A model generated the notes under the pieces. The model worked only from the letters and a program-made list of their open reading frames with translations, was not told the DNA's origin and did not search any database. Both the position numbers and the translations under genes were made by a program. Source: Stieleria bergensis (lineage in GTDB: Bacteria > Planctomycetota > Planctomycetia > Pirellulales > Pirellulaceae). Taken from it: a DNA stretch of 64,000 nucleotides. Below, one piece after another: positions 23,335 to 46,434 of the stretch. Numbering within the stretch: position 1 is the stretch's first letter; every line of letters starts with the position of its first letter. The stretch is taken from NCBI GenBank assembly GCA_007745635.1, contig CP036272.1:4269521-4333520 (forward strand), written 5' to 3'.

Positions 23335-23871
23335 ATGTCTGATTCAAATCAACAGGGAACCGAGTTCCCGCCCACCGACGCCTTGGTAGGCGTGATCATG
23401 GGCAGCAAGAATGACTGGGAAACCATGCGGCCTGCCTGTGACGTTTTGCAGTCACTGGGCATTCCACATGAGCGAACCGTGGTCAGCGCGCACCGCACCC
23501 CCGCACGCATGGTGGCCTATGCTCAATCGGCTTCCGAGCGAGGCATCAAAGTCATCATCGCAGGGGCTGGCGGTGCAGCACACCTGCCCGGCATGGTTGC
23601 CTCGGAAACCCTGCTGCCAGTGATTGGCGTTCCCGTGCAAAGCCGCGCCTTGCAAGGTCTGGACTCATTGCTCTCCATCGTCCAAATGCCCGGTGGCATT
23701 CCAGTGGCCACCATGTCCATCGGAACCAGTGGCGCCAAAAACGCCGGTTTGATGGCGGCAAGAATTTTGGCCACTGCAAACCAGGACATCGCGGCCAACT
23801 TAGATGAGTTTGTTCAAGCTCAAACACAAGCTGTTTTAGACAACACGGAATTGGAGTCACACCAAGCGTGA
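23335..23871 (+). CDS. purE: 5-(carboxyamino)imidazole ribonucleotide mutase
   Basis: The 178 residues have the class I PurE signature: [23 protein letters not shown] and [12 protein letters not shown]. The enzyme converts N5-CAIR to CAIR in purine synthesis. The stop overlaps the GTG start of purK by four bases (GTGA), the usual purE-purK coupling. The first 15 residues are an extension compared with shorter bacterial forms. Confidence 0.97.
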
Positions 23872-25076
23872 GCCAACAAGCAAGTGAGGGCGACGCTCCG
23901 TCGACCAGCAACACCAGATTCGAAGACACAAACATCGTGTTACCAGGCGGCACCATTGGCATGGTCGGTGGCGGCCAACTGGGACGGATGTTTGCCATCG
24001 CCGCGATGCAAATGGGCTATGACGTTGTCGTCTATTGTGACTCAGCAGATGCCCCGGGCGCTCAAGTGGCCACACGCTGCGTGATCGGTGACTTGAACGA
24101 TCATCAACAGCTGACCGCGTTCGCCGAACAGTGTGATGTGATCTCATTGGAATTTGAAAACATTCCTGCCCAAGCCATTGCCTGTTGTGGCCAACAGGCG
24201 CCGACGTTCCCCTCGCATCATGTCCTGGCCACCGCACAGGATCGGCTGATCGAAAAACAAACGTTTCGAGACGCGGGACTGGCAGTGACCCCGTTTTTGC
24301 AAGTCTCCAGTGCAGCCGACGTCGCCGCCTTTGCAGAGCGACATGCGTGGCCGGTGATCGTGAAAACGGCTCGCAGTGGTTACGATGGCAAGGGTCAATA
24401 TCGATTGCAAGACGCGGAACAAGCCGCCCAAGTGCCATGGGCGGAACATGATGCTTGGATTGCCGAACAATTCATTCCCTTTCAACGCGAAGCCTCCGTC
24501 GTCGTCGCTCGCAGCCGCAACGGATCCGTGCGTTGTTTTCCTCCCTTTGAAAACGAGCATCACAATCACATCCTAGACGTTAGCTTTTGCCCCTCGACGC
24601 TGACGCAGTCCCAGATTGCCAATGCCACTGAAATGGCCAGCAAGGCTGCAGAGGTCTTGGACTTGGTTGGCCTGCTCTGTGTTGAATTCTTCGTGCAAGA
24701 GGACGGCAGACTGCTGATCAACGAAGTGGCACCTCGCCCCCACAACAGTGGGCACTTAACAATCGAAGGCAACCACACCAGTCAATTCCAGCAACACGTG
24801 CGTGCGATCTGCGGCCTGCCTTTGGGCGACCCCAATCTGCGTTGCTCGGGCGCAGCGATGGCGAACCTATTGGGCGATTTGTGGCAGGCAGCTGGCGGAA
24901 ACCCACCCTGGAACCAAGCGTTTTCGGTTCCAAATGTGTCCTTGCACTTATATGGCAAGCGAGACGCCAAGGAAGGACGTAAAATGGGCCATTTGACGGC
25001 CACCGCGGATTCGCCCGAACAAGCGGCTCAGAATGTGCGCGACGCTCGCCAGCGACTATCATGCGATTCAAAATGA
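23868..25076 (+). CDS. purK: 5-(carboxyamino)imidazole ribonucleotide synthase
   Basis: The 402 residues form an ATP-grasp enzyme: [16 protein letters not shown] (about 25-40), [15 protein letters not shown], and the C-terminal [12 protein letters not shown] with the metal and phosphate ligands. It makes N5-CAIR from AIR, ATP and bicarbonate, directly feeding PurE. A GTG start overlaps the purE stop. An in-frame ATG deeper inside would cut off the Rossmann loop, so the GTG is preferred. Confidence 0.96.
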
Positions 25077-27130: not shown

Positions 27131-27895
27131 TCAACTCCATTCTCAGCCCCAACGGGGAGGATGGCACAAGCTAACGAGGGCCAGACAAAGAGAGCCAACC
27201 GGTTTGCTGCTGCTCAAACCCCGCAGGCGAGTCAAAAGGGGGGGCATCCCCAGGGCGAGAGGTGGAACAGCTGCGGCGTTCAGGCGATGCCTTGAAGTGT
27301 CCCACTAACGCTTGAAATTTGCATGCGGGTCTTTTGTGGGGCAGGACCTGCGGCAGGCAACCATTGAAATTGACGCCGTTTGGCGACCACAGTCAGAGGC
27401 TCACGGGCAACGAGAATGTTTTACAGGCAACGCGTTTCGGGGTCTTCATTTCTGATTTTGTGTTCCAGGTGGGACGCGTTGCTCCGAACCGCTGAGGGAT
27501 TCTTGCGTCCTTGGCCGCAACTGGGTCCTTGGCCGAATCAGGACAGGGCAATGGAATTGCCGCCGGGCGCTTACGACGCCACAAAACACCTTGCACTTCG
27601 ATGTGGGACTGCAAGCAGCCCTGAGATCGGATTCGGTGAGGAGCGATCGGTGTTTCTCGAACAACCGCTACACTGGGAAGGTTGGGCTTTCCGACACTCT
27701 AGTGTATAGAGTAGCGGGTGAACCGTCCCCGCACGAATCAGTTTGCCTGGAATGACTCGCGATTATCAGGTAGGTTTGCAGCGAGTTGTCGCGAAGCGAT
27801 CTCCGCTGGTGGCAAGCTGCAAGCCGCTTTGGTAAAACACCGCTAAGTGAACGTCGCGACTTGAACGTCGCGACTTGAACGTCGCTAAGTGGATA
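27131..27895. other. Long intergenic region before the secretion operon
   Basis: A degenerate repeat box (GTGGAACAGCTGCGGCGTTC, about 27261-27280) lies outside the main island. Just upstream of the ABC gene (27846-27890) a 14-bp unit GAACGTCGCGACTT is repeated in tandem between two CGCTAAGTG sequences. Frames across the region (for example 27380-27709) lack any recognisable product. Confidence 0.45.
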
Positions 27896-30037
27896 ATGGG
27901 CGAGCCAGAAAATGGAATGAATGCGTCACAGGATGAACCCCAGGAATCGTCGAACTCGATGTCGTTTTCAAATCAAACTCTTCAGCAAGTCGTCGCGGCG
28001 CTTTCGCTGGCGTTGGACCTAAGAACTGACAAACAGCCCCTCTCGGCGGTCTCGATTCCCAGTGAATACGATGACCCGCTGGAGCCGGTTTACATCTACT
28101 GTCAATTGGCAGGGGTCGTGCTTCGTGAAATCGACCCACCATCGGCCAAGATGGCGTTGTCGATGGTCCAGCAGGGATTGCCCTTGGTCGTCGCCGAAGA
28201 CGAAGGCACGTTGCATGTTGTGGAATCCAGCGAGGCTTCCAACTTTGAAGTCAAGACGTTTGGCACCGCGACAAATGCTCAGACGATGTCGCCCAGCGCG
28301 TTTGCCAAACTGATCAGCAACAAAGACCGGTTGCGTGTGTTGACTGCCGAGAAATCATTGCAGTGTGAGACCATGTCAGCACTCGATGGCTCCGGATCGA
28401 CCAAGCCTGCGTCCAAGCGACCGGGACCGTTCACGCGCTGGTTATCGCTGGTCAAGATGGACCGCCGCGATATCGGGCTGGTTTTCCTCTTCGCTGCCGT
28501 CGCCGGCTTTCTCGGTTTAGCGACGCCGCTGTTTGTGGAAACCCTGGTCAATGTCGTCGGTTGGGGGATCTATTTACAACCCTTGATTGTGCTGGCCTTT
28601 CTGTTGCTGATCTGTCTGGGAATCGCGGCGATCTTAGCTGTCTTGCAGACCTGGATCGTGGAAATCATTCAGCGTCGGCAGTTTGTGCGAATCATGTGTG
28701 ATCTCTCACACCGCTTCCCACGCGCCAATCAGAAGGCGCTTGAAGGCAAGTATCCGCGTGAGTTTTCGAATCGTATGTTCGATGTGATGACGATTCAAAA
28801 AGCGACTGCGATCCTGTTACTCGATGGCGTTTCCATCTCGTTGACGACGACGCTGGGATTGGTCTTGCTGGCGTTCTATCACCCCTTGCTGTGTGTGTTC
28901 GGATTGATGCTGGTTTCGACCATGATCAGCGGCACCTGGTTGCTGGGCCGTGGCGGTATTGGATCAGCGATCAAAGAGTCAGGCGCCAAGTATGCCGTGA
29001 TCCACTGGTTGCAGGATGTGATCGCAATGCCAACGGTATTTAAGACCGGTGGCGCGGAACAGTTTGCCGTTCGCCGCGCAAACCAACTGACAACGGAATA
29101 CATCAACGCGCGGAAGCGGAAGTTTGCCGTTGTGATTCGACAAGTGATCTTTGCGTTGTCGCTTCAGGCGATCGCCTCGACTGCATTGCTTGGTTTGGGT
29201 GGCTGGCTGGTGATTGAAGGTGAACTGACCCTGGGACAACTGGTGGCCAGTGAGTTGGTGGTGACCGTCGTGGTCGGTTCGTTCGCCAAAGCTGGCAAAG
29301 CGTTAGAGAAATTCTATGAGTTGATGGCGGGGATCGATAAGGTTGGCTATTTGGTTGACATTCCACCGGACCCGCTCGTCGACGCAGTGCTGCAATTGGA
29401 AAATGAGCTGCCCGTGCGGTGGAGCGATCTGTCGTTCAAAGCCGGCACCATCACAGCCAAGGTGCCAGCAGCGGAAATTGAGCCCGGTGATCGATCTGCG
29501 GTGATCGGTGATGGAAACGAAGCAAAAACGCTGCTCGCCCAAAGCATTGCTGGATTGGTGATTCCCCAAACGGGGACCGTCCAAGTCGAACAGCAAGACG
29601 CCGTCCGCGCCGCGATGGCAATCAGTGGCGGCATTGTTGGCTACGCAGGCCGGCCACAGATTTTCCATGGGACCGTGCGAGAGAACATTGACATCGGCCG
29701 AGATCGAGTCTCGACATTGAATGTCCAGCAAGCGGCAGAAATGGCAGGCTTGGATCGCACGATTCTGCGGCTAGAGGGCGGCATTGAAGCAAGGCTGCAA
29801 ACCGGTGGTGCTCCGCTCTCGGCTCAGCAATGTTCAATGCTGTCGATTGCCAGAGCCATCGCTTGCCACCCCTCGGTGCTAGTGATCGATGGGCTCCTTG
29901 ATGATTTGAGCCCCAGCACTCGCAACAATATCCTGAGCTCGATTACCGATCCTGAACAGAAGTGGACCTTGATTGTGATCACCAGCCTCAATGAGGTTGC
30001 CGATCAATTGAATTCCAAAATCACGATTCGCGCCTAA
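27896..30037 (+). CDS. ABC-type secretion transporter with degraded ATPase
   Basis: The ATG at 27896 gives 713 residues. A TTG at 27875 is also possible. An N-terminal domain (about 30-150) resembles a C39-peptidase-like fold without the catalytic Cys. A transmembrane domain follows (about 180-470, roughly six helices), then a nucleotide-binding domain. Each ATPase motif deviates: Walker A reads GDGNEAKT (538-545; two glycines replaced), the Q-loop Gln is missing (YAGRPQIF), the signature is LSAQQ (641-645), Walker B ends DG instead of DE (665-666) and the H-loop His is Ser697. It lies in an operon with HlyD-like and TolC-like genes. ATP hydrolysis by this protein alone is unlikely. Confidence 0.88.
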   Translation: MGEPENGMNASQDEPQESSNSMSFSNQTLQQVVAALSLALDLRTDKQPLSAVSIPSEYDDPLEPVYIYCQLAGVVLREIDPPSAKMALSMVQQGLPLVVAEDEGTLHVVESSEASNFEVKTFGTATNAQTMSPSAFAKLISNKDRLRVLTAEKSLQCETMSALDGSGSTKPASKRPGPFTRWLSLVKMDRRDIGLVFLFAAVAGFLGLATPLFVETLVNVVGWGIYLQPLIVLAFLLLICLGIAAILAVLQTWIVEIIQRRQFVRIMCDLSHRFPRANQKALEGKYPREFSNRMFDVMTIQKATAILLLDGVSISLTTTLGLVLLAFYHPLLCVFGLMLVSTMISGTWLLGRGGIGSAIKESGAKYAVIHWLQDVIAMPTVFKTGGAEQFAVRRANQLTTEYINARKRKFAVVIRQVIFALSLQAIASTALLGLGGWLVIEGELTLGQLVASELVVTVVVGSFAKAGKALEKFYELMAGIDKVGYLVDIPPDPLVDAVLQLENELPVRWSDLSFKAGTITAKVPAAEIEPGDRSAVIGDGNEAKTLLAQSIAGLVIPQTGTVQVEQQDAVRAAMAISGGIVGYAGRPQIFHGTVRENIDIGRDRVSTLNVQQAAEMAGLDRTILRLEGGIEARLQTGGAPLSAQQCSMLSIARAIACHPSVLVIDGLLDDLSPSTRNNILSSITDPEQKWTLIVITSLNEVADQLNSKITIRA

Positions 30038-30055
30038 CACGGTCACGGAACTTCC

Positions 30056-31414
30056 ATGATTCCCAAAAGCAAATTTGAAGACTTCCCTGCGTACCACATG
30101 GTCCGCACTGGACGGATTGTTCGCTTGATTGGCAGGATCACGTTCCTGCTGTTGATACTGTTTATTGTCGCCATGATCTTTGTCCCCTGGCGGCAAACGG
30201 CGCGCGGTTACGGCATGGTGGTGGCAAAAGATCCGCAGCAACGAGCCCAGGTTGTCGTCAGCCCAGCCAAAGGAGTTGTTAGCTGGGTCAAGGCAGGCAT
30301 CCGTGAAGGCACTTATGTCACGAAGGATACTGAACTGCTGCGTTTGACCCCCATTGCAGCGGACCTGGTTGAACAACAGAACAACCAAATTCGTGTGCTG
30401 AAGGAAAAAGAAGCCTCGGCCATCGACAGCATGAATCGTGCGAAGGAAAACGAGACCAACCAAGTCCAGGCCGGGCGAAACCTATCCACCTCGCTGGACA
30501 AGGAACTGGAGGCCACCAAACAGAAATGGAATAAGGCCAAACAGGATGTCCTTGCTGCCGAAGCGGAACTCAACGATAAGCAAAACCAGTTGGCGGTCGC
30601 CGAGAAGATTTTCCCACAAGGTCTGATCAGCAATCAAGCACTTGTTAGCAAGCAACAGGCAGTGAAAGTCGCCCGCGCCAAATACATGGGACTGGAAGCC
30701 TCCGAACAAGAACAGTACGAAAACTTGCTGGCCAAAGAGGAGGAAATCGAAGCCAAGAAACAAGAGATTTCCATCAAAAACCAAGACGCAAGCATCAAAG
30801 TGTTCGAGGCCATGCAAAAGCTGAACACGGTCGAAAAAGAGCTTCTGGAAATCCAACAGAAACGTGCGGAATTGGATCGTTTGACGGTCAAAGCACCGCG
30901 TTCGGGAGTGATTCTTGAATGGCAGGTGATCGAGGGCAGCGACACATTCAAAGAGGGCGACAAGCTGTTCAAAATTGTTCCGGTGGCCGAGGAAATCGCT
31001 GTGGAAATGGTTGTCAGCGGTAACGACATGCCGCTGCTGAAACCCGGTGAGCGCGTCCGGTTGCAATTCGAAGGCTGGCCTGCGGTCCAGTTCGTTGGCT
31101 GGCCATCAGTCGCCGTCGGGACATTTGGCGGCAAAGTCGACCGAATTTACCCAGCTGATGACGGTTACGGAAACTTTAAGATCTTGGTGATCCCTGATAG
31201 CCATTTTGAACGCGAGGATGGCTGGCCAGATGACGATTATCTAAGACAAGGTGTCCGTGCTAACGGATGGGTTTTGTTAGATGAGGTATCACTGGGATAC
31301 GAGATATGGCGTCAAATGAACGGATTTCCGCCAACAGTTTCGCAAGAGGACAGGAAGGCAAACTCTGGCAAAGATGCCAAAGGTGGGTTCAAGCTGAAAA
31401 TGCCCAAACCCTAA
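30056..31414 (+). CDS. HlyD-like periplasmic adaptor
   Basis: The 452 residues have one transmembrane helix (about 25-43, ITFLLLILFIVAMIF). Next come a lipoyl/barrel half (about 55-105), a long coiled-coil hairpin (about 105-280, dominated by Lys, Glu and Gln) and the second barrel half (about 285-400, APRSGVILEWQVIEGSDTF then VRLQFEGWPAVQF). It should link the inner-membrane ABC protein to the TolC-like channel in the periplasm. It starts 18 bases after the ABC gene. Its 3' end overlaps the next reading frame by about 109 bases. The C-terminus is Lys-rich. Confidence 0.92.
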   Translation: MIPKSKFEDFPAYHMVRTGRIVRLIGRITFLLLILFIVAMIFVPWRQTARGYGMVVAKDPQQRAQVVVSPAKGVVSWVKAGIREGTYVTKDTELLRLTPIAADLVEQQNNQIRVLKEKEASAIDSMNRAKENETNQVQAGRNLSTSLDKELEATKQKWNKAKQDVLAAEAELNDKQNQLAVAEKIFPQGLISNQALVSKQQAVKVARAKYMGLEASEQEQYENLLAKEEEIEAKKQEISIKNQDASIKVFEAMQKLNTVEKELLEIQQKRAELDRLTVKAPRSGVILEWQVIEGSDTFKEGDKLFKIVPVAEEIAVEMVVSGNDMPLLKPGERVRLQFEGWPAVQFVGWPSVAVGTFGGKVDRIYPADDGYGNFKILVIPDSHFEREDGWPDDDYLRQGVRANGWVLLDEVSLGYEIWRQMNGFPPTVSQEDRKANSGKDAKGGFKLKMPKP

Positions 31415-33225
31415 TTGCCAAAGCTTGCCGCAGCGCGAGCCTGAAAATCATTTTAGTCGCCGCCGTGTTGGGCTGGATTGTGCCGTCGCGCGCCGCGCTT
31501 GCTCAGCCACCACAGCCAATCCAGTTGCAGGCTCCTGCCGGTGGCCTGCTAAGCGATCCCCCAGGGGCTGCGGCTCCAGCCGTTCTGCCAGCCCAGCAAC
31601 CGGCTCCAGCCCAGCAACCGGCTCCAGCCCAGCAACCGGCCACACTCGCCGAAATGATCGAGGCTCAGGGCCCTGCGGAATCGAACCGCTCGCCTTCTGC
31701 GGACGCCGCGTTTGCTTGGCGAGAGAGCACGGCAATCATGATGTCGATCGACGACATCACCGAACAGACGTCCACAGCGCTCAGCACCAATGCACCGGAA
31801 CTGGAGAGCCTGGCGCTGGCCGATGTGCTGGCGAGTCTGTATCGCTACTATCCAGAGGTTTTGGCTGCCGAACAGATGCAGCAACAAACCGCTGGTCAAT
31901 TGCGTTCGGCCTGGGGATCTTACGATACCAAAGTCTATGCAGAATCGATGAACCAGCCCACGGGCTACTACCAAACCTACCGCAACGGGCTGGGGGTGGC
32001 ACGTCAGACTTGGTGGGGCGGCTACCTGTCGGCAGGCTATCGCGTCGGCCGCGGCTATTATGAACCTTGGTACAAGGAACGCCAAACTGACGACGCAGGT
32101 GAATTCAAAGCATCCATGACAGTGCCTCTGCTACAAGGCCGTGCGATTGACATGGAACGATTGGCTGTCTTTCAAGCGACCGTCGATCGGCAGATGGTGG
32201 AACCCGTGATTCGCCAAGCAATCCTGGATGCCTCGCTGAACGCGGTCAACCATTACTGGTCCTGGGTGGCTGCCGGAACGGTACTCAACACTCAGCGCAA
32301 TCTACTGAAATTGACCGAGGCACGTCGCAAGCAATTTGAAGCCGGTGTCAAAGCGGGCGCCTTCAAAGAGATCGACATGGTGCTGAACGATCAGCTGATT
32401 GCTGAGCGTAAAACGACCGTGCTCAAGGCCATTCAAAAGTACCGCGAAGCGGGCTTTAAACTTTCGCTCTACTTGCGTGACGAATCGGGAAACCCGATGG
32501 TTCCCGCCGATCACTGGCTTCCCAAAGGCTATCCAGAGATCGACATGCTGGATGGATTTGTCCTTCAAACCGCGCTCTCGGAAGCCTTGGCACGTCGTCC
32601 GGAACTGGACCTGATCATGCTTGACCAGCGACGTGTCTCATTGGACCAACGGCAAGCTCGCAACGAGATGCTGCCCAACCTGGACTTCTTCACACAAGGG
32701 TCACAGGATCTCGGTGCACGCGCTTCGTCATCCAATGACAAAGGCGATTTCGAATTCATCCTTGGCATTCGAAGTGACGTCCCGATCCAGCGACGAAAAG
32801 CCTCTGGCAAAATCATGTCCAATCAAGCCAAGGCCGCACAGATCCAGCAGAAACTACGATTGGCTCGCGACAAAGTTGCCATGGAACTCAGCAATTCGTA
32901 CAACTCACTGCGACTGTCCCAGATGATCGTCGTCCAAAGCGAAAATGCTTTCTACAACGCCTTGGAAACACAGAAACGCTATCGCATCGGATTTGAAGAA
33001 GGCTATAGCGATTTGGTCTATCTGAACCTGATCGAAACGAAGGCCAACGAAACGGAAATCAAACTGATCGAAGCCCAACGTGATTGGTATCAAATCCTCA
33101 GCAAACTGCAACGTGCCTTGGGACTCGATCCCCTGGAACAGGCAATGCGACTCGACTCACTGCCCATGCATCCGATGATCAAGCCCTCGGAAGAAGCAGA
33201 GGAAGCCGACGCCGATGGCGACTGA
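31306..33225 (+). CDS. TolC-like outer-membrane channel protein
   Basis: The frame has 639 residues. A signal peptide lies at about residues 45-68 (SLKIILVAAVLGWIV, cut after ALAQ), preceded by an unusually long 44-residue leader that overlaps the HlyD-like gene by 109 bases. No later good start exists before the signal, so the ATG at 31306 is kept. A Pro/Ala/Gln linker made of three exact 18-bp repeats (31588-31641) follows. The rest is typical of TolC-family channels with two helical repeats (RRPELDLIMLDQRRVSLDQRQ; NSYNSLRLSQMIVVQSE). It is the third part of the type I-like secretion set. Confidence 0.85.
   Translation: MASNERISANSFARGQEGKLWQRCQRWVQAENAQTLIAKACRSASLKIILVAAVLGWIVPSRAALAQPPQPIQLQAPAGGLLSDPPGAAAPAVLPAQQPAPAQQPAPAQQPATLAEMIEAQGPAESNRSPSADAAFAWRESTAIMMSIDDITEQTSTALSTNAPELESLALADVLASLYRYYPEVLAAEQMQQQTAGQLRSAWGSYDTKVYAESMNQPTGYYQTYRNGLGVARQTWWGGYLSAGYRVGRGYYEPWYKERQTDDAGEFKASMTVPLLQGRAIDMERLAVFQATVDRQMVEPVIRQAILDASLNAVNHYWSWVAAGTVLNTQRNLLKLTEARRKQFEAGVKAGAFKEIDMVLNDQLIAERKTTVLKAIQKYREAGFKLSLYLRDESGNPMVPADHWLPKGYPEIDMLDGFVLQTALSEALARRPELDLIMLDQRRVSLDQRQARNEMLPNLDFFTQGSQDLGARASSSNDKGDFEFILGIRSDVPIQRRKASGKIMSNQAKAAQIQQKLRLARDKVAMELSNSYNSLRLSQMIVVQSENAFYNALETQKRYRIGFEEGYSDLVYLNLIETKANETEIKLIEAQRDWYQILSKLQRALGLDPLEQAMRLDSLPMHPMIKPSEEAEEADADGD
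31588..31641 (+). repeat. 18-bp tandem repeat in the TolC-like gene
   Basis: Three head-to-tail copies of CCAGCCCAGCAACCGGCT encode a PAQQPA linker. The first two copies are identical and the third differs in its last base. Length variation would be tolerated, because each unit adds six residues in frame. Confidence 0.85.
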
Positions 33226-34600: not shown

Positions 34601-37600
34601 TTAACCGTTGGAAGCCAAGAAGCGTCGCTTGGACAACTGTGCGGCGAGTTCACCAAAGTTAAAATCGATCGCGTCAGCACCGATGCCCAAATCCAGATCG
34701 ATGAACGCGTTGTCAATCACCGTGGCGGTCGCTCCCGTCCCGGCGGTGGTCTGTCCATCGATGAAATCGGCTGGCTGCACCTGTTCAACGTCGTACGTGC
34801 CGGCTGCCAGCTCAGCGAAGACGTAGTTTCCATCGGCATCGGTGGTGGTGGAAAGATCCACCGCGTCGCCATCATCGCTGGTCCCGGTGACGGTGATCAC
34901 GACTCCTGAGATGCCAACTTCGCCATCGTCCACGATGCCATTGTCGTTGCTGTCCAGATAGACTCGCCCCGAGATCGAACCGGATGCTTCGGTGACCGTG
35001 GTCACTGCGGTCGCGGTGTTGTTGCTGGTGTCGTCTTCGTCCGTCGCTGTGCTGACTGTCACGGAGTTGGTGACCGAGCCCATGGTTGTGTTGTCAACGG
35101 TGACAGTGATGGTAAAGTTATAGGAACTGCCACTGTCGAGGTCACCGCCATCGACGGTCACTGTGCCGCCGGATTCGGTCAGAGCTCCATCGGGCCCCGT
35201 ACCGCTGACGAACGTCACCCCAGCAGGCAGCGTATCAACAGAGATCGCATCGACCGCAGTGGAAGGACCGGCGTTGGTGACGGTAATGCTATAGACCAAC
35301 GTGTCGCCAGCCTCAGCAGACGCTTGGTCAACGGTCTTGGCGATCGACAGATCTGCCTCAGGTGTCGCGGTGATGCTGACCGAATCCGTGTTGTTGGTCG
35401 TATCGGTTTCGCCACTGTCGGCTGTCACACTGGCTGAATTCGTCAAGGTGCCCGAGGCGTTGGCGTCAACGGTCAACACGATCGTCGCGGTCTGGGTCTC
35501 GTTGCTGTCCAACGAGACCGCTGCAAACGTGATGTCAGAACCACTGACCGAACCCGCTTGGCCTTCCAACGTCGCACTGACGAAGGTCATGCCGGTTGGA
35601 ATCACATCCGACAACTCAACAGTTGTGGCTGTACTTGGTCCAGTGTTTGCGATTTCGATGGTGTAGGTGACATCGGTGGTCGGAGCCGGAGTCGTATCGT
35701 CAACCGTTTTATCAATGGTGACATCAAACTGGGGTGTCAATGTTGTGCTGGCGGTCGCAGTGTTATTGCTGGCATCGTCGTCGCCCCCGTCGATCACAAT
35801 GTTGCCGGTGTTATCCAGCGTGCCCGTTGCCTCTTCATTGATGCTGGCCGACACAGTGAACGAGCGGGTTACAGCAAGAGCCACCGAATCGTAGACCACA
35901 GTGACGGTACGCGTTGCCGAATCGTAGTTTGTTGAAGTCGCGTCGGGCGCGGTGATGGTCAAGCCCGTCGTGCCCGCAGGCAGCACATCGGTGAACGTGA
36001 CTTGCCCCGCATCCGTATTGCTGTCTGTGTCGTGAGCAATGGTGAAGCTGTACACCAGACTGTCTTGTCCGGGAACGGCAGTCGCCAGGTCAACGTCCTT
36101 GGTCAAGACTAAATCAAACACACCGGCTGCGAGCGTCACATCAACATCATCGCTGTCGTTGCTGGCATCGGTGTCGTTGTCGCTCGTCGTTACATCAGCC
36201 TGATTATTGATGGTTCCGGACGCCGAGCCAGCAATATCGACCGTGAATTCGAAGGTCAGCGTTTCGTTCACGTCAACTTCGGGCAGGTCAAAAGTCAGAT
36301 CTTGTCCGCTTTGGCTGACCGTCGCGCCGCTGTTGCCAGCGTTGAGACTGACAAACGTGAACTCGCTTGCCAGCGTATCGAGCACTTGGACGCCGCGTGC
36401 GGGACTGGTGCCATCATTGGTCACATCAATGACGAACGTCAACTGGCCGCCGGCAGTTGGCGTGCCGGTGAACGTCTTTGTCACAGACGCGTCGACATCA
36501 CGGCTAACCCCCGTTTGCACGGTGGCGGTGTTGTCGGTTGGATCTGGATCAATATCCGGCGTCATGCTAACGGTGACGGTGTTGTCCAGCGTGTCGGCAA
36601 CATCAACCGCAGAATCGACGACGATTTCGACAACCGCCGATTGAGAGCCATTCAGATCATCAATGTCGATGGTCAACACGCCACTATTGTCTGTGACACT
36701 GCCCGAACCACTGGTGAAACTGCTGCTGACAAAGGACAAACCGGATGGCAGAGTATCCATCGCGACAATGCCAGTCGCAGTGTCAGGCCCATTGTTGACC
36801 ACGGTGATGGTGTACGTCATCTGGTCACCGGCAACAAGCGTACCGGTGACGTCGTCTGTCTTGGTGATCGCCAGGTCTGCATTCAACAGACTGACAATCA
36901 CGGTCGCCGTGTTGTTGCTAGGATCGACGTCGGCTTCGGTTGCATCGACATCAACCGTATTGGTGACGGGGTTTACCAAAGCGACATCGATGTCGGCTGC
37001 AATGCGAATGGTGCCCGCGGCGCCGGCTGCTAGGCTGCCCACGTTGACCGTGATTTCCTGGCCAACAATCACCGGAGTGAAGCCGCCAAAGTCCGAACTG
37101 GCTTGATCCAAGGTCAAACCTGCGGGCAGTGTATCAACCACCGTGACGCCGGTCGCATCAGAGGTGCCGAGGTTCTGATAGGTAATGTCAAAGAAGACCT
37201 CGCCGCCGGCGACTCGGTTGGAGTCATCTTGATCAATGACCTTGGTGACGCTGACATCGACGGCCTGAACCACACCCACATCAAGGGTAAAGTTTGTGTT
37301 GGCGTTCGAGTCACCATCGTTGATCGGCTCGGTCTCGGCAGCCAATGTGATCTCGCCAGTGACAATGCCAGTGCCCGAGACGGACGTGCCATTGTCATCA
37401 TTGTCGACGTCGTCGTCCGGATCTGGCGCGGGATCATTCCCGGTACTTGAAGTCATGCCCTCCAACACCGCACTGCTGCCAAACTCTGATTCAGGCACAA
37501 CAACCAAGTAGTTGCCTGCCAACAGCGTGTCGAAACTGTAATCACCGTTGCTATCGGTGGCCGTCGTCGCGACGGGAGTTTGCGCGTCGGGGTCGATCGC

Positions 37601-38779
37601 TCCGCCGCCATCGGGCTCGGCGTACAGCTCAACCGTCACACCAGCGACACCAATCTCTGCTCCATCCAGAACACCGTTATTGGCGTTTGTTCCGTTGTCG
37701 TTAAAGACCGTCCCGCCAAGCGTCAACAGTTGCTCGTTGGGCAGGTTGCCCGTTTCAATCATCGGGCCGCGAACGTTAAAGGCCTCGAAGGTTTTATCGT
37801 TGTTGGCAGCGATGGAAACTTCGAATTCGATTGCACCGACGTCATTGAAATCAGGAGTGCCAACCAAAGTAAAGTCTGTATTGTATCGCAGGTAGACATC
37901 CGTCTCGCCGCTGCCGAGTTCAGGGATCACAATCCCGGTTGCTTCGGCGTAGTTCGCCCCATCGGTGTAGATTCGAACATCGATGGTGTCGCCAGCGTTC
38001 TCTTGAGTCGCCTGAATCAGCAAACCAGCGTCCGAATCAACAGGATCTCCTGGACTGCCGTCAGCGAGGGACACACCGCCCAGCCCCGTGGGGTCTAGCG
38101 TCGTTGATCCGTCGTTGCCGTCGTACTGGATCAGCAGCGTTCCAGCACCTTGAGTCTGCGAACCGATCGATAGTGTCTCGTCGTTAGGATCCGCTGCAAT
38201 GAACAGAATGCCTTGCGCACTGGTACGCGTGACCTCCAAGTCACGTGCTCCTCCGAGCACTTCGCTGGCAAGGGCAGAGTCTTCATCCGTCGGATCTGAT
38301 CCGTCAGCGATCAAGCTCTGTGCGGTCGCGGAGAAGTCATCGATGGTTTCGAACAGCGAACCGCCCGCGTTGGTCACGTCGATGACAATCGGATCGGGAG
38401 CCACCAAGTCCGCGCCGGCGGACTCTTGCTCGACCAAATACGTGTCAACGGTCAAGCCGCGAAAGAAGTAAAACCCGTCGTTGTCACTGGTCGTCGTGTC
38501 GATCGCCGCACCGTCGTTGGCATCCAAAATGCCATTGTCATCAACGTCGCGATACAGGTTGATCGTCACGCCATCGAGTCGCGGATCGGAAACGTCCAAG
38601 CCATCACCGGTCAAGTCGACGAACGACACACCGGAGATCGCGCCCAAATCGCCGGCCAACAACATCCGGCGATTCAGTGTTTCATGCTGCAGGCGTCGAC
38701 GCATGGCGCGTCGGCGATTCTTGTCGCTCTTCTTTCCGCTTCGACCACGCAAACGTTCAATCACTTGTTGCCAAGCCAT
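34601..38779 (-). CDS. Giant acidic surface protein with SdrD-B and DUF11 repeats
   Basis: The product is 1392 residues. The N-terminus is strongly basic (RRRAMRRRLQ) and carries LNRRMLLAGD, a variant of the planctomycete LEPR-XLL motif, in place of a normal signal peptide. Then come two SdrD-B-like domains (about 45-150 and 350-440), six DUF11 repeats (each starting like DLAITKTDD or DVTIDKTVDD and containing VxDTLPAGLTFVS), and a last SdrD-B domain (about 1270-1350) with SGRVYLDSNDNGIVDDGEVG. The tail reads FGELAAQLSKRRFLASNG. The repeats are Asp-rich with very few Lys or Arg, suggesting calcium-stabilised rods. It probably sits on the cell surface. The route of export is not established. 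Confidence 0.88.
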   Translation of the reverse strand: MAWQQVIERLRGRSGKKSDKNRRRAMRRRLQHETLNRRMLLAGDLGAISGVSFVDLTGDGLDVSDPRLDGVTINLYRDVDDNGILDANDGAAIDTTTSDNDGFYFFRGLTVDTYLVEQESAGADLVAPDPIVIDVTNAGGSLFETIDDFSATAQSLIADGSDPTDEDSALASEVLGGARDLEVTRTSAQGILFIAADPNDETLSIGSQTQGAGTLLIQYDGNDGSTTLDPTGLGGVSLADGSPGDPVDSDAGLLIQATQENAGDTIDVRIYTDGANYAEATGIVIPELGSGETDVYLRYNTDFTLVGTPDFNDVGAIEFEVSIAANNDKTFEAFNVRGPMIETGNLPNEQLLTLGGTVFNDNGTNANNGVLDGAEIGVAGVTVELYAEPDGGGAIDPDAQTPVATTATDSNGDYSFDTLLAGNYLVVVPESEFGSSAVLEGMTSSTGNDPAPDPDDDVDNDDNGTSVSGTGIVTGEITLAAETEPINDGDSNANTNFTLDVGVVQAVDVSVTKVIDQDDSNRVAGGEVFFDITYQNLGTSDATGVTVVDTLPAGLTLDQASSDFGGFTPVIVGQEITVNVGSLAAGAAGTIRIAADIDVALVNPVTNTVDVDATEADVDPSNNTATVIVSLLNADLAITKTDDVTGTLVAGDQMTYTITVVNNGPDTATGIVAMDTLPSGLSFVSSSFTSGSGSVTDNSGVLTIDIDDLNGSQSAVVEIVVDSAVDVADTLDNTVTVSMTPDIDPDPTDNTATVQTGVSRDVDASVTKTFTGTPTAGGQLTFVIDVTNDGTSPARGVQVLDTLASEFTFVSLNAGNSGATVSQSGQDLTFDLPEVDVNETLTFEFTVDIAGSASGTINNQADVTTSDNDTDASNDSDDVDVTLAAGVFDLVLTKDVDLATAVPGQDSLVYSFTIAHDTDSNTDAGQVTFTDVLPAGTTGLTITAPDATSTNYDSATRTVTVVYDSVALAVTRSFTVSASINEEATGTLDNTGNIVIDGGDDDASNNTATASTTLTPQFDVTIDKTVDDTTPAPTTDVTYTIEIANTGPSTATTVELSDVIPTGMTFVSATLEGQAGSVSGSDITFAAVSLDSNETQTATIVLTVDANASGTLTNSASVTADSGETDTTNNTDSVSITATPEADLSIAKTVDQASAEAGDTLVYSITVTNAGPSTAVDAISVDTLPAGVTFVSGTGPDGALTESGGTVTVDGGDLDSGSSYNFTITVTVDNTTMGSVTNSVTVSTATDEDDTSNNTATAVTTVTEASGSISGRVYLDSNDNGIVDDGEVGISGVVITVTGTSDDGDAVDLSTTTDADGNYVFAELAAGTYDVEQVQPADFIDGQTTAGTGATATVIDNAFIDLDLGIGADAIDFNFGELAAQLSKRRFLASNG

Positions 38780-41119: not shown

Positions 41120-44100
41120 TCACTTGTAGACAGATTCGGAACGGCTGGCGGCGATTGCTTCAGCGGCCTGATTCCTGCGCAATTGCGATGGATTCCCAGA
41201 CACGCCAGCGGTCAAACCAAAGTCATTCAGGATCACATACAAGGCTGGGAGCACAAAAAGGATCAACAGCGTTGAAGCCAGCAGGCCGAAACAGATGCTG
41301 ACAGCGATGGGAATCAACACCTGTGCTTGCAGACTTTTCTCCAGCAATAGCGGCATCAGTCCCGCAATCGTGGTTAACGAGGTAATCATCACAGCTCGGA
41401 AACGCACGCGACTGGCTTCCCGAGCCGATGCCTCGACGTCAGCACCTTGCTGACGCTCTGACTTCAGGAACAGCATCAAAAGAATGGAGTCATTGACCAC
41501 GATCCCCGCCAAGGAGGCATAGCCCATCACGCTTGGCAAACTAATGCTGAGCCCAAACAGGAAGTGTCCCCAGATGACACCCACGAAGGCAAACGGAATC
41601 GCCACCATCACCACCAGCGGCTCGAGATAACTTCGAAACTGAAACGAGAGAATCACAAACACGCCCAAGCACCCGATCATCGCTGCGCGCAACATTGATG
41701 TCCCCGTTTCGTCGGCGGCTTCGGCTTGGCCGCGATAGGTGACACTCAGCCCCGGGTATTCGGCTTCCATCGGGGCAATGACATCCCGACGCAGATTCGC
41801 CAGCACGATCATCGTGTTGGTGCGTTTGGCATCGGCATTGGCGATGACGTTTAGTTTGCGCCGTCCATTGAAACGAGAGATGCGCGACCATCCTTGGCGG
41901 GACTCAAGCGTGGCGATCTCGCCAATCGGCACCATTTGTCCGCCCGGCAGCGAGACGCGAAACTCCTTCAAGTCGCTCACGCTGGATCGGTTTTCATCGG
42001 CAAAGCGAACTTCGATATCATAGCCTTCATCACCGACTTGGATTTGATCGCTTTGCAGCCCCTGAAACGAGCCTCGCAATTGCCGCCCCAAGTCGATCGC
42101 CGTGATCCCCAATCCGACCGCTCCGGGTCGCAACTTAACAATCACTTCTTGAGCCCCAAGACGTGTGTCTGTGGTGGCATTGTAAACGCCATCGTAGGTT
42201 TCCAGTTCGCTGATGATGTCTTGCGACAATCGGCTCAGTTCGCTCAATGGCAAACCCATCATTTGAATTTCAATGGCTCGTCCGCCGGGGCCGATGGAGG
42301 GTTCATCAAATGTAATGGTTTGCGCATCGGGAATCTCACCCACTTTTTCGCGCCAGGTGCGTAAAAAGTCCTCGATCCTTGTGGTCCGCAGTTCGTTGGT
42401 CAACAGGTCAGCCGACAGAGTAGCGACGTGAGGTCCGGTCTCTTGAGCGTCACTATTAAAATTGAATCGCACATGAGAAACCTCGACCAAATCGCGTTGG
42501 TCGGGTTGCTGGGGACTGTAGACCGCGTTGGTGGCTGCCAATGCGGCCTCCATTTCCGCGACCACCTGCTGAGTGCGACTGAGTGGAGTCCCGGCACGCA
42601 TCAACAATCGTGCTTCGACCGAATCACCTTCCAGGTCTGGAAAGACTTCTCCTTGAACGCGTCCGCCGACGATCAAGCCGATTGACAACAGGAACAGCAT
42701 CGCGGTCAACCCGGCGGTTAAGTAGCGCCAGCGCACCGTCCAGCCAACCAACGCGCCAACTCGATCACGACCGGCATCAATCAGCCCATCGACGCGCTGC
42801 CGGAACCAACCTTTGCTGTCACCGTTTTCGTGCTGCAGTGAGTGTCCCAGGTGAGCAGGCAAGATCAAATAGGCTTCCACCAAACTGGTCGCCAGGACCA
42901 GCAAGAGAATCATCGGGAGCACTTTTAAGACTCGACCGATGTCACCGGAAAGAAAGATCAGTGGCCCCAACACACTGCACGTGGTCAAGAATGAGGAGAA
43001 AACCCCACCAGCCACCTCTTTGACACCGTTGACCGCAGCCTGCATTGCTGGTTCTCCGGTCGCGCGCCGCCGAGCAATGTTCTCGGCAATCACGATCCCA
43101 TCATCCATCAGCAATCCGATGGCCATCAACAAGCCGACCATGGTCAACATATTGATGGTCAACCCGGCAGCTGGCACCATGGCAAACGCAGCCATGAATG
43201 AGACCGGCAGACTGGCGACCACCCAAAAGGAAAGCCGTGCGTTGAAGAACAACCACATCACAAGAAACACCAAGATACAGCCTTGCCAGCCATTCTTGAT
43301 CAATAGCGAGAGACGTTCACTGACCAACGATGAGCGATCATTGATCGTGGTAAAATCAAGATCGGGCCGGACACTTTGTTCTTGATCCAAAACCGCTTTG
43401 ACTTCAGCGGCCACGGTCAGTGAATCGGATGACTTTGATTTAAGAATTTTCAGGATCGCAGCGCGTTTCCCGTCCGCATCGACGCGGTCCTCTGTAAATT
43501 CGAACTCGCTGACAACTTCACCGAGATCGCCGATGCGAACTTCGGCGTTACCCGCGACGGCTTTGACAACAATCTGCTCAATTTCTTTCGGCGTCGTGCG
43601 CTCTTCCTGAATGCGAATCAAGACCTCTTCGCGCCCTGAGATCGTTCCCGCCGGCAAATCGACGTTCTGAGAACCAACCGCATTGGCAACATCAATGGGG
43701 CTCAACCCCTGAGCCAACAAGCGGTCTCGGGACAACTTGATGCGATAAACAGGCTCGGAGAATCCGGCAATCTGACAGTCCGAGACCCCCTTGAGTGCCA
43801 TCATGCGATCTTTCAACGATTCGCAATAGGCTTTCAAACTGCGATGCGAGCCAAGGTCATCATCAACGGTGGCTTGAACCAGGACTTCCAAAACCTGGTC
43901 CCGCGTATTGAGACGCTTGATAACGGGCGGCTCTGCAAGATCAGGAAAGTCATTGATGGACGTGACAGCGTTTTCAATTTCGTTACGAAAGGCCCCGTAG
44001 TCACCACGGTCGGACATCTCCAACGTGACGGTGCCAACATTGCTAAGCGACTGGCTGCGCATCTCTTTAAGAAACTGCACGCTGTCCAGCTCCTCCTCCA

Positions 44101-44293
44101 GACGCGACACAATCGACTCGTCCACCTCTTCAGGCGTCGCACCAGGAAAGACGACCGTGACCTGGACTTCGGTTGGCAACGAGTCAGGAAAGGTCTCGCG
44201 GCGCAGGCTGCCCAATGACATCAGCCCGGCAGCCAGCATGATCACCATCAGCAAGTTGGCTGCGGTTGGATGTTTGGCAAAAAAATCAATCAT
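41120..44293 (-). CDS. RND-family efflux pump, inner-membrane subunit
   Basis: The 1057 residues have the AcrB/HAE-1-like layout: one N-terminal helix, a large periplasmic loop, a block of helices, a second loop and a final block. The helix-4 proton-relay pair is seen in IGLLMDDGIVIAENI. SIVSRLEEELDSVQFLKEM and QFRSYLEPLVVMVAIPFAFVG are also typical. It exports drugs or other small amphiphiles driven by the proton gradient. It overlaps the adaptor gene by four bases. No outer-membrane channel gene follows, so a channel from elsewhere (perhaps a TolC homologue) is needed. Confidence 0.94.
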   Translation of the reverse strand: MIDFFAKHPTAANLLMVIMLAAGLMSLGSLRRETFPDSLPTEVQVTVVFPGATPEEVDESIVSRLEEELDSVQFLKEMRSQSLSNVGTVTLEMSDRGDYGAFRNEIENAVTSINDFPDLAEPPVIKRLNTRDQVLEVLVQATVDDDLGSHRSLKAYCESLKDRMMALKGVSDCQIAGFSEPVYRIKLSRDRLLAQGLSPIDVANAVGSQNVDLPAGTISGREEVLIRIQEERTTPKEIEQIVVKAVAGNAEVRIGDLGEVVSEFEFTEDRVDADGKRAAILKILKSKSSDSLTVAAEVKAVLDQEQSVRPDLDFTTINDRSSLVSERLSLLIKNGWQGCILVFLVMWLFFNARLSFWVVASLPVSFMAAFAMVPAAGLTINMLTMVGLLMAIGLLMDDGIVIAENIARRRATGEPAMQAAVNGVKEVAGGVFSSFLTTCSVLGPLIFLSGDIGRVLKVLPMILLLVLATSLVEAYLILPAHLGHSLQHENGDSKGWFRQRVDGLIDAGRDRVGALVGWTVRWRYLTAGLTAMLFLLSIGLIVGGRVQGEVFPDLEGDSVEARLLMRAGTPLSRTQQVVAEMEAALAATNAVYSPQQPDQRDLVEVSHVRFNFNSDAQETGPHVATLSADLLTNELRTTRIEDFLRTWREKVGEIPDAQTITFDEPSIGPGGRAIEIQMMGLPLSELSRLSQDIISELETYDGVYNATTDTRLGAQEVIVKLRPGAVGLGITAIDLGRQLRGSFQGLQSDQIQVGDEGYDIEVRFADENRSSVSDLKEFRVSLPGGQMVPIGEIATLESRQGWSRISRFNGRRKLNVIANADAKRTNTMIVLANLRRDVIAPMEAEYPGLSVTYRGQAEAADETGTSMLRAAMIGCLGVFVILSFQFRSYLEPLVVMVAIPFAFVGVIWGHFLFGLSISLPSVMGYASLAGIVVNDSILLMLFLKSERQQGADVEASAREASRVRFRAVMITSLTTIAGLMPLLLEKSLQAQVLIPIAVSICFGLLASTLLILFVLPALYVILNDFGLTAGVSGNPSQLRRNQAAEAIAASRSESVYK

Positions 44294-45774
44294 CGCGCCA
44301 CCTCTTGCTGAGCCGCGCCAACCGATGCCCTGTTGCGAACCGCTTGATCAGACGAAGCATTTTTCAACAACGAAGACGGACTTGATGGGGAAAACACTGC
44401 GGCGTCTGAAAACGTTGGCGCAACCAATTGACGATCCACGAGCGAGGAGGCGGGATCTAAGATCACAATCTCGCCATCACTTAGTCCCGACGTGATCGTC
44501 GTTCTCCCCTGGACCTCAAAACCGATCTGCACCTGACGCCGCTGCACACGGTTCTGATCGGTGATGCAAAACACCATGGAATCCACCAACGCAGCGTTGG
44601 GAACCGAAATCGCCGACGTTGGCTGATTCGATCGCAAACGAACTTCGCAAAATGATCCCGGCCGGAGCTCGGAGGCGTGACTGATCTCCCGCCTGCCTGC
44701 CGCTGTGGCATTGCTGACTCGAACGACCAATCCAAGAGTTCGCGAACGCTCGTCGAGCGACGGTGTGACGCGAACGACTTCGCCTGAGTAACGCATCTCA
44801 GATGCGCCACTACGCGTCACCACCTCGACCTCCACGGCGGGCAATGACTGCACGGCGGGCAATGACTGCATGGCGGGTTGCAAAACGCCTTGCTGGGCGA
44901 ATTCGATGTTGGGTGCAACGCCATCGGGGACAGCGGTTTTCGGACCTCCCACTAAACGTCGCAACTGCGCCAAAGAAATTTGCGTTTCGACTTCCACGCT
45001 GGTCGTTTCAATGATGTCCAACAGTGTTTCTTTGGGCGCGACATACTGGCCTTCTTCGAGAGCAACATTGGCCAATAGGCCATCAAAGTTCGCGACGATG
45101 GTTGTTCGCTCCAGATCGCGTTTGGCTTCCTGGACTCGAGCGGCTGACAAAGCGATCGACGCTTCAGCAGACTCAATTTGTGCCTCATAAGTACTAAGCG
45201 AGTTGAGAAGATTCTGAACCGTTTGTTGTTGCTGCAACTGGCTGAGTTGGACGACGTCCGCTTCGGACCACGACGCCGATTGATTCAAACGCAGTTCTGC
45301 CAGGCGTTTGACGTCGCGATCACGCACCACCAACATTGCCTGCTGAATCTGGAGCGACTTTTCATCCGACGCGCGGGCGAGTTCCAACTGGCGCAGTTGA
45401 GCCTGGGCCTGGCGAAGCTCAGCCTGCCGTTGCTGGAATCGCAATTGATAGTCCGAGTCATCGATTTGCAGCAATGGCTGCCCTTTGGTCACCGAGATCC
45501 CTGGCTTGAGCTGCAGATACGACTTGGCAATCTGTCCCCCGACTTCGGCCACAGCCGTCCAACGTCGATTCGCAGCGGCAGTGCCAAAACCAACCACCTC
45601 AGGGGCCAAAGGTGACACGACAGCATAGATTGCCTTCACTGGCGTGGCTTTCTCGGTGTGTTCAACGCGTTTGATCTCTTTTTTCATAGAAACCAACACT
45701 GCGATCACAGCGAGCCCAACCAAGATCGGCGGCACGATCAGCAATCGCTTTGACCGCAGAAGTCTTTTCAACAT
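44290..45774 (-). CDS. RND efflux adaptor (membrane fusion protein)
   Basis: The 494 residues have one N-terminal membrane helix (LLIVPPILVGLAVIAVLVS), a barrel/lipoyl region (VAEVGGQIAKSYLQLKPGIS), a coiled coil (RQAELRQAQAQLRQLELARA) and a second barrel half (TTIVANFDGLLANVALEEGQ, then SLAQLRR). A repeat-containing insert reads MQSLPAVQSLPAVEVEVV. It bridges the RND pump to an outer-membrane channel. It follows tetR with four bases between stop and start. Confidence 0.92.
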   Translation of the reverse strand: MLKRLLRSKRLLIVPPILVGLAVIAVLVSMKKEIKRVEHTEKATPVKAIYAVVSPLAPEVVGFGTAAANRRWTAVAEVGGQIAKSYLQLKPGISVTKGQPLLQIDDSDYQLRFQQRQAELRQAQAQLRQLELARASDEKSLQIQQAMLVVRDRDVKRLAELRLNQSASWSEADVVQLSQLQQQQTVQNLLNSLSTYEAQIESAEASIALSAARVQEAKRDLERTTIVANFDGLLANVALEEGQYVAPKETLLDIIETTSVEVETQISLAQLRRLVGGPKTAVPDGVAPNIEFAQQGVLQPAMQSLPAVQSLPAVEVEVVTRSGASEMRYSGEVVRVTPSLDERSRTLGLVVRVSNATAAGRREISHASELRPGSFCEVRLRSNQPTSAISVPNAALVDSMVFCITDQNRVQRRQVQIGFEVQGRTTITSGLSDGEIVILDPASSLVDRQLVAPTFSDAAVFSPSSPSSLLKNASSDQAVRNRASVGAAQQEVAR

Positions 45775-45778
45775 GATG

Positions 45779-46405
45779 CTAATTCCCTGTCGCCTCTAAA
45801 CCATACGCAGCCAGAAACATCTTGACCGCCGACTGACAAATCTTCTCTTGCTTGGCCTTTCCCGGCATTGGCTTTCCAGCGCAATCACGAATTGGCTGAA
45901 TACCAACCAACATGCCGATAAAGGCCTCCGCCGCCATGGCGGGATCCTCGCAACACAACCGTCCGGCCAACGTCTCTTGTTTCAAGTAGTTCGTCATGGC
46001 CTTTATCACGCGAGCCGGACCGGCGGCGTAAATCGCCTTGCCGATCTCCGGGTGGTCGATCGTTTCGGAAAGCGCCAAGCGTCGCCAACGCATGGCATCA
46101 CGCGACAATAAACGCGAAAGGAACACGTGGCCGAACTGCAGCAAATCAGCTTCCGTATCCCCGCTCGATTGAAGAGACGTGGAGATCCGCTGCGCATTGC
46201 CTTCGGCGTGCTGCTGCACAATGGCCAGCAACAGCCCATGCTTGGATCCAAAGTGGCTATACACCGTCGGCTTGGTCACACCGGCAACCTTGGCAACATC
46301 ATCCAAGTTGGATTCGCGGTAGCCCTGCTCCAAGAACAACTTGATCGCCGCAGCGAGAATCAGCTCTTGAGTTGGCGGTTTCTTTTGGTTTGCTTTTTTA
46401 GCCAT
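45779..46405 (-). CDS. TetR-family repressor of the efflux operon
   Basis: The ATG at 46405 gives 208 residues; a TTG eight codons upstream is weaker. The helix-turn-helix is at about residues 20-60 (AAAIKLFLEQGYRESNLDDV then KPTVYSHFGSKHGLL). The ligand domain contains a C-terminal TetR-C-like helix set. It is first in the operon with the adaptor and RND genes. A perfect 15-bp palindrome lies 30 bases upstream, so it probably represses its own operon. Confidence 0.93.
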   Translation of the reverse strand: MAKKANQKKPPTQELILAAAIKLFLEQGYRESNLDDVAKVAGVTKPTVYSHFGSKHGLLLAIVQQHAEGNAQRISTSLQSSGDTEADLLQFGHVFLSRLLSRDAMRWRRLALSETIDHPEIGKAIYAAGPARVIKAMTNYLKQETLAGRLCCEDPAMAAEAFIGMLVGIQPIRDCAGKPMPGKAKQEKICQSAVKMFLAAYGLEATGN

Positions 46406-46434
46406 TGACGACACACTCCATCCATCCAAACTTT

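Follow-up and report, generated by a model that had tools for sequence, protein, structure and literature searches.

The 64,000-nucleotide stretch of Stieleria bergensis DNA analysed here (assembly GCA_007745635.1, contig CP036272.1, positions 4,269,521 to 4,333,520; referred to below as the window) carries three consecutive forward-strand genes arranged like a type I secretion system (T1SS). The first (27896..30037, +) encodes a protein of 713 residues, here called the pseudo-ABC transporter, with an N-terminal mixed domain, a six-helix ATP-binding cassette (ABC) exporter membrane domain and a domain of the nucleotide-binding type (NBD) that lacks most catalytic residues. It is followed by the gene for a HlyD-type periplasmic adaptor of 452 residues (30056..31414, +), identified by Pfam matches and locus comparison, and by an open reading frame of 639 residues for a TolC-type outer-membrane channel (31306..33225, +), which overlaps the adaptor gene and probably has its true start further in. 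The adaptor matched HlyD_D23 and HlyD_3 above the Pfam gathering cut-offs, and the channel matched OEP at 95.7 bits, also above the cut-off; the HlyD subfamily model TIGR01843 gave the adaptor 58 of the 209 bits required. A HlyD-type adaptor and a TolC-type channel are combined in one module, as in a T1SS and as a preliminary description of the locus had proposed. That description also held that no second intact ATPase adjoins the module, and in genome profile searches the pseudo-ABC protein was the sole window protein among the 63 ABC_tran and 4 ABC_membrane matches of its genome, leaving no other ABC domain in the window. Short direct repeats (aacgtcgcgacttg-like) were spotted by eye at 27846-27893 (+), immediately 5' of the pseudo-ABC start codon.

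Both the full transmembrane domain and the recognisable NBD shape noted previously were borne out, as ABC_membrane (37.5 bits) and ABC_tran (38.2 bits) matched the protein above the Pfam gathering cut-offs and HlyB was the best Foldseek match of its AF2-predicted fold. The Foldseek alignments to HlyB and PCAT1 spanned about 700 columns, and in a second run mostly residues 174-713. A mixed alpha/beta N-terminal domain (residues 26-165; 27971..28390, +), delimited by AF2 secondary structure and Foldseek, occupies the position of the C39 or C39-like domain in PCAT1 and HlyB. The membrane domain (residues 178-500; 28427..29395, +) is the most conserved part in the family, judged by the family alignment and by omega (the ratio of nonsynonymous to synonymous substitution rates), and the pseudo-NBD (residues 501-713; 29396..30034, +) was assigned from Pfam, AF2 and Foldseek. 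The fold is that of a T1SS ABC component, but the catalytic motifs that are intact in the T1SS exporters HlyB, LssB/LapB, PrtD and PCAT1 are lost, and the curated T1SS models all scored far below their cut-offs (122 of 693 bits for TIGR03375/LssB, 101 of 726 for TIGR01846/HlyB and 93 of 510 for TIGR01842/PrtD). Within its own genome, 54 of the 63 PF00005 matches scored 70-131 bits and the pseudo-ABC protein 42.1 bits; among single relatives scanned with the same profile, a competent protein (P0121) scored 97.6, one with Walker A kept (P0326) 83.7, and the Rhodopirellula baltica protein (P0072) 42.6 bits.

The ATPase motifs were taken from the translation, with residues counted from the ATG at 27896. 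Walker A reads GDGNEAKT (residues 538-545; 29507..29530, +), with the first Gly, Lys and Thr kept. The Q-loop region, VGYAGRPQIF (residues 581-590; 29636..29665, +), is without the loop Gln, Gln588 falling past that position in the HMMER alignment, and the signature LSAQQ (residues 641-645; 29816..29830, +) is without both signature glycines. Walker B, VLVIDG (residues 661-666; 29876..29893, +), keeps its Asp and has Gly666 instead of the catalytic Glu, and the H-loop His is replaced by Ser697 (29984..29986, +), at the end of 692-LIVITS-697. These readings coincide with those of the preliminary description, which had called all the motifs degraded; the degradation is confirmed, but 'all' goes slightly too far, as Lys544, Thr545, Asp665, Gln645 and the D-loop Asp669 are still there. 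Because these residues persist, the ATPase site is, judged from its sequence, crippled and not erased.

Degradation in homologous operons, which had been proposed as a check, was found throughout a large family. An alignment of 448 rows was compiled from the best 120 of 2831, 4559 and 5483 matches, respectively, in three protein searches, together with the loci of relatives, short rows having been removed; since sampling followed similarity to selected queries and left near-duplicates in the set, the counts that follow are not population frequencies. A competent class (GxxxxGK[ST], Asp-Glu and His) comprised 115 rows, a Walker-A-only class, which keeps GxxxxGK[ST] and not both Glu and His, 210 rows, and a class without Walker A 123 rows. 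In the last class the SxGQ signature was found in 0 of 123 rows, Walker B was Asp-Gly in 72 and Asn-Gly in 18, the Walker A Lys position was occupied by Arg in 66 and Lys in 25, and the H-loop His was still present in 13. The Walker-A-only rows kept His in 25 and the SxGQ signature in 18 cases. Even the competent rows had no Q-loop Gln (0/115) and mostly an LSLGQ signature (105/115), which suggests that a weakened coupling predates the loss of catalysis. It had been pointed out earlier that intact homologues together with a sequencing error would undo the case; intact homologues do exist, most of them grouped in a separate clade, but the losses are common to this gene's relatives. As identical losses recur across this large family, a sequencing error or frameshift as their cause is very unlikely, and the degraded ATPase is a trait of the family and no accident of this locus.

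The losses were mapped on a membrane-domain tree that held 82 representatives and no outgroup. A branch supported at 100/99 has on one side 19 mostly competent rows (16 fully competent, two without Glu, one whose signature is altered) and on the other 63 rows, 62 of them without the catalytic Glu. The minimum number of changes on this tree was 11 for Walker A, 6 for the signature, 4 for the catalytic Glu and 6 for the H-loop His, and the simplest story would be an early loss of Glu, after which His and Walker A were lost repeatedly. The exception among the 63 rows, L035, keeps Asp-Glu and His and is placed among mostly Asp-Gly relatives, and prompted us to consider that the catalytic Glu might have been lost several times independently. 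Thirty loci were read, 26 of them in genus g11 (L142 being L035 again); the 25 readable g11 rows carried Asp-Gly in 20, Asp-Glu in three (L142-L144), and Ala and Ser in one each. With Asp-Glu in only 3 of 25 rows versus Asp-Gly in 20, the Glu of L035 may be a reversal, and several independent losses are not claimed. Trees rooted with distant ABC exporters placed the dead or Walker-A-only rows nearest the root, with very long outgroup branches that make this root unreliable.

All parts of the module are under purifying selection within one genus. Six same-genus genomes gave 15 pairs, which are not independent of each other and some of which have dS near 1. Omega, from a Nei-Gojobori script, ranged over 0.021-0.071 for the membrane domain, 0.094-0.223 for the dead NBD, 0.022-0.084 for the adaptor and 0.098-0.167 for the channel; the N-terminal domain was loosest, at 0.134-0.491 (14 pairs listed, several being repeat comparisons of the same genomes). 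An intact exporter encoded in the six genomes (the 672-residue protein of the S. bergensis genome and its best-matching relatives, presumed orthologues) served as control and gave 0.013-0.063 for the membrane domain and 0.052-0.105 for the NBD. The pseudo-ABC membrane domain is as constrained as that of the control exporter, and the dead NBD is also constrained, if less tightly than the control NBD. At the family level (1500 pairs sampled per class), the ratio of NBD to membrane-domain identity was 0.93 in competent rows (111 rows), 0.79 in Walker-A-only rows (138) and 0.62 in dead rows (150), while membrane-domain identity stayed at 0.69-0.71 across the three motif classes; in 16 intact control exporters the two domains were conserved to much the same degree, with NBD identity at 0.73 against 0.70 for the membrane domain. 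The module is common in one planctomycete group, a match at E 1e-60 being found in 157 of 241 family genomes (the motif state being read in part of them), and internal stops were absent from two match lists and occurred once (G465) among the matches listed for the 241-genome search.

The module also holds together as a gene set. Sixty-seven loci were read (one contig twice, as L014 and L051), with the anchor gene above threshold in 65 (not in L173 and L174). The adaptor gene was immediately next in 62 of these 65, and adaptor and channel lay on the same strand within three genes in 55. Besides adaptor and channel, no gene cluster recurred throughout the loci read, ATPase and candidate substrate genes included.

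A three-gene module, a predicted HlyB-like fold and a family-wide loss of catalytic residues are what the data establish, and the preliminary description of a T1SS-like operon that is not a textbook system is supported and widened to a family with an evolutionary gradient. We think it somewhat better than an even chance that the module is a conserved tripartite transporter working without ATP hydrolysis of its own, its passage being ion- or gradient-driven or gated. This reading is favoured because motif loss is family-wide, with Glu all but gone beyond the well-supported branch, because omega is low in membrane domain, adaptor, channel and dead NBD and internal stops are near absent, because the NBD diverges with motif state while membrane-domain identity holds, and because the adaptor gene so consistently comes next. 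It is also favoured by work on related proteins: exchange of the H-loop His in the HlyB NBD cuts activity to <0.1%, and mutation of the Walker B Glu impairs hydrolysis (PMC9751043), and SbmA offers a precedent of an ABC-type membrane domain turned proton-driven, which its authors derive from ABC transporters losing NBD and coupling helices (PMC13316013). In mechanism, a transporter of this kind would stand closest to SbmA. The ancestor would have been an ABC exporter of the T1SS/PCAT type; two pseudo-ABC subunits would form the inner-membrane passage, the dead NBDs being retained as a structural or gating platform, and the HlyD-type adaptor and TolC-type channel would take the substrate over the periplasm and outer membrane. 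Passage would be powered by an ion gradient, as in SbmA, or would be that of a gated conduit with the substrate running down its own gradient, two readings that match the preliminary description's options of another power source and of a passive export gate. The more specific proposal of a switch from ATP to an ion gradient, with the NBD kept as a scaffold, the HlyD-TolC conduit still fed by the exporter and the whole acting as a tripartite secondary transporter on an ABC chassis, is put forward tentatively. That the module would work like a tripartite conduit stands, and the family is a real, conserved and apparently ATPase-less one of tripartite transporters.

Possible coupling residues were sought in the membrane domain. 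Glu215 in the first transmembrane helix, TM1 (28538..28540, +), is Glu in 319 of the 333 rows outside the competent class (123/123 without Walker A and 196/210 Walker-A-only), the column being Met in 106 of 115 competent rows and Gln in L099 and L100, relatives matching a T1SS profile, both below that profile's cut-off. Glu215, Asp310 and Glu453 are conserved and lie in or near hydrophobic helices, which makes them candidate coupling residues, as a lead. Thirty-two membrane-domain positions are fixed for one residue in dead rows and for another in competent rows, with 12 of them within residues 274-300 and 373-409 and others in TM1 and TM6; residues 274-300 and 373-409 are the stretches expected to contact the NBD.

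Several points weigh against a transporter without ATP hydrolysis. The Glu215 pattern needs three changes on the membrane-domain tree and is therefore suggestive at most, and the looseness of the dead NBD is only partly special because the control exporter NBD is, by omega, also looser than its membrane domain. SbmA-type proteins are without coupling helices (PMC13316013), whereas the pseudo-ABC family keeps conserved intracellular loops. Purifying selection still acts on the dead NBD and the pseudo-ABC protein keeps Lys544 and Thr545, so that it may bind nucleotide; Walker-A-only rows make up 210 of the 448. These last observations would suit an ATP-gated, non-hydrolysing protein, in which degenerate NBDs bind nucleotide and binding alone opens the passage or senses the energy state, and degenerate sites of other ABC exporters are reported to bind ATP, some for minutes (PMC7756269). 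Such gating is nevertheless unlikely, given that the rows without Walker A have often lost the Lys as well and never carry SxGQ, and that the A-loop aromatic, judged by eye, is seemingly absent from the query and its near relatives. Unconventional residual hydrolysis at the degenerate site, for which the persistence of Asp665, Lys544 and Thr545 could speak, is far less probable, as Glu, His, the Q-loop Gln and the signature glycines are lost together and replacing the corresponding His or Glu in HlyB abolishes or impairs activity (PMC9751043). We likewise give very little weight to a relic drifting to loss: motif decay is progressive and 84 of the 241 family genomes have no match at E 1e-60, but membrane-domain omega equals that of the intact control exporter from the six genomes, selection also constrains adaptor and channel, and the matches listed show a single internal stop.

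Hydrolysis might instead be supplied by another protein. An ABC composite site forms where Walker A, Walker B and the H-loop of one chain face the signature of its partner chain. As the pseudo-ABC protein is without both the Walker and H-loop residues and the signature glycines, a partner could not simply rescue the site, and even an intact one would leave both composite sites crippled. A heteromer with an ABC subunit encoded elsewhere, the distant ATPase of the preliminary description, is disfavoured on this ground and appears rather improbable, although degenerate sites are known in the heterodimers TmrAB and TM287/288 (PMC7756269, PMC8277102) and HlyB acts as a trimer of dimers (PMC9751043). 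In the genus of S. bergensis a PF16962 permease gene lies directly or nearly upstream on ten contigs, nine of these loci also having an ABC NBD (clusters c12 and c1; Pfam-checked at L045) with Walker A present and the LSGG string absent. The S. bergensis genome itself has zero PF16962 matches, which rules out this exporter as an obligate partner, and just three further proteins with ABC_membrane (PF00664). A second NBD was found in at least 12 of the 67 loci, the count being a minimum because the search was in several cases seeded with a protein other than the ABC product, and in the loci read no ATPase is a regular companion of the module; exporters matching TIGR03375 (E 1e-60 or better, none above cut-off) were present in 60 of 60 relatives regardless of the module. 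That another ATPase, for example a secondary SecA, powers the module is very doubtful. HlyD-type genes without an ABC protein stand beside a secondary SecA in planctomycetes and others (Kamneva et al. 2015, PMC4452313) and the S. bergensis genome has three SecA_DEAD matches (G000:C1, at 2078437, 1764691 and 6070322), but a SecA match occurred in one of the 67 loci (L184), so SecA2 is not a regular neighbour, and the published loci are different modules.

The family was compared with known systems. SbmA/BacA (SLiPT) resembles the proposed transporter in having an ABC exporter-type membrane domain that works without ATP, but its NBD and coupling helices are gone, it imports peptides and it has a glutamate ladder, whereas the pseudo-ABC protein keeps a dead NBD and conserved loops (PMC13316013). 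An NBD-type domain is present and the intracellular loops are conserved, so the protein is not a membrane domain without NBD and coupling helices. TM287/288, TmrAB and TAP match the pseudo-ABC protein in fold and have likewise lost the catalytic Glu and changed the H-loop on one subunit (PMC7756269); their intact partner keeps one working composite site, whereas the pseudo-ABC protein loses signature and Walker residues on one chain and no partner was found. The planctomycete SecA2-linked HlyD modules share T1SS-type adaptors without a working ABC protein, but have no ABC homologue and are adjoined by a secondary SecA and M50-type proteins (Kamneva et al. 2015, PMC4452313). No account of the present family was found in the literature searched, including the available text of a T1SS review (PMC8277102), although coverage of subscription journals was thin and this is weak evidence of absence. 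To our knowledge, SbmA/BacA has no HlyD or TolC partner. ABC exporters are defined by ATP-driven NBDs, and degenerate sites are familiar where an intact partner compensates. The family would represent a midpoint between full ABC exporters and the NBD-less SbmA end point, in an export setting, and its graded living relatives (competent, Walker A only, none) make the survival of an ABC exporter past its motor testable. It also carries a warning for annotation, since such proteins are named 'ABC transporter ATP-binding protein' or 'Alpha-hemolysin translocation ATP-binding protein HlyB' in databases despite the lost motifs.

Some neighbours recurred in part. In BLAST comparisons of the 67 loci, phosphoenolpyruvate (PEP) carboxylase was found at 7, DabA at 6, either at 10 and LysR-type regulators at 9; Pfam confirmed PEP carboxylase at L058, L141, L187, L189 and L205, DabA at L188, L190 and L203, and LysR at L057 and L195. 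At L141 and L205 the module comes after both DabA and PEP carboxylase. Loci with PEP carboxylase and/or DabA-DabB near the module came from several genera (L141, L187-L191, L203, L205, L058 and L196). Among 60 genomes (S. bergensis included), 27 had both module and DabA, 8 the module only, 7 DabA only and 18 neither (p 0.0002), and 15, 7, 7 and 18, respectively, with the genus counted once (p 0.009); the presence sets were compiled by hand, and kinship was handled solely by this single counting. These associations hint, as a lead, at a role in inorganic-carbon or organic-acid physiology, and because PEP carboxylase, DabA/DabB and LysR regulators adjoin some loci we lean weakly towards a metabolite or ion as cargo, as opposed to a large protein. 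Two pseudo-ABC matches in one genome (G049:C10 and G049:C15) each lie ~6 kb from a DabA match on the same contig.

Elsewhere in the window, the module is preceded by purE and purK (23335-25076, +), a purK homologue being directly upstream in L060 too. A large surface-type protein with DUF11, SdrD_B and a weak Planc_extracel N-terminal motif is encoded near the module (34601-38779, -), and a separate RND efflux set, consisting of a TetR regulator, a HlyD-type adaptor and an AcrB-type pump, occupies 41120-46429 (-).

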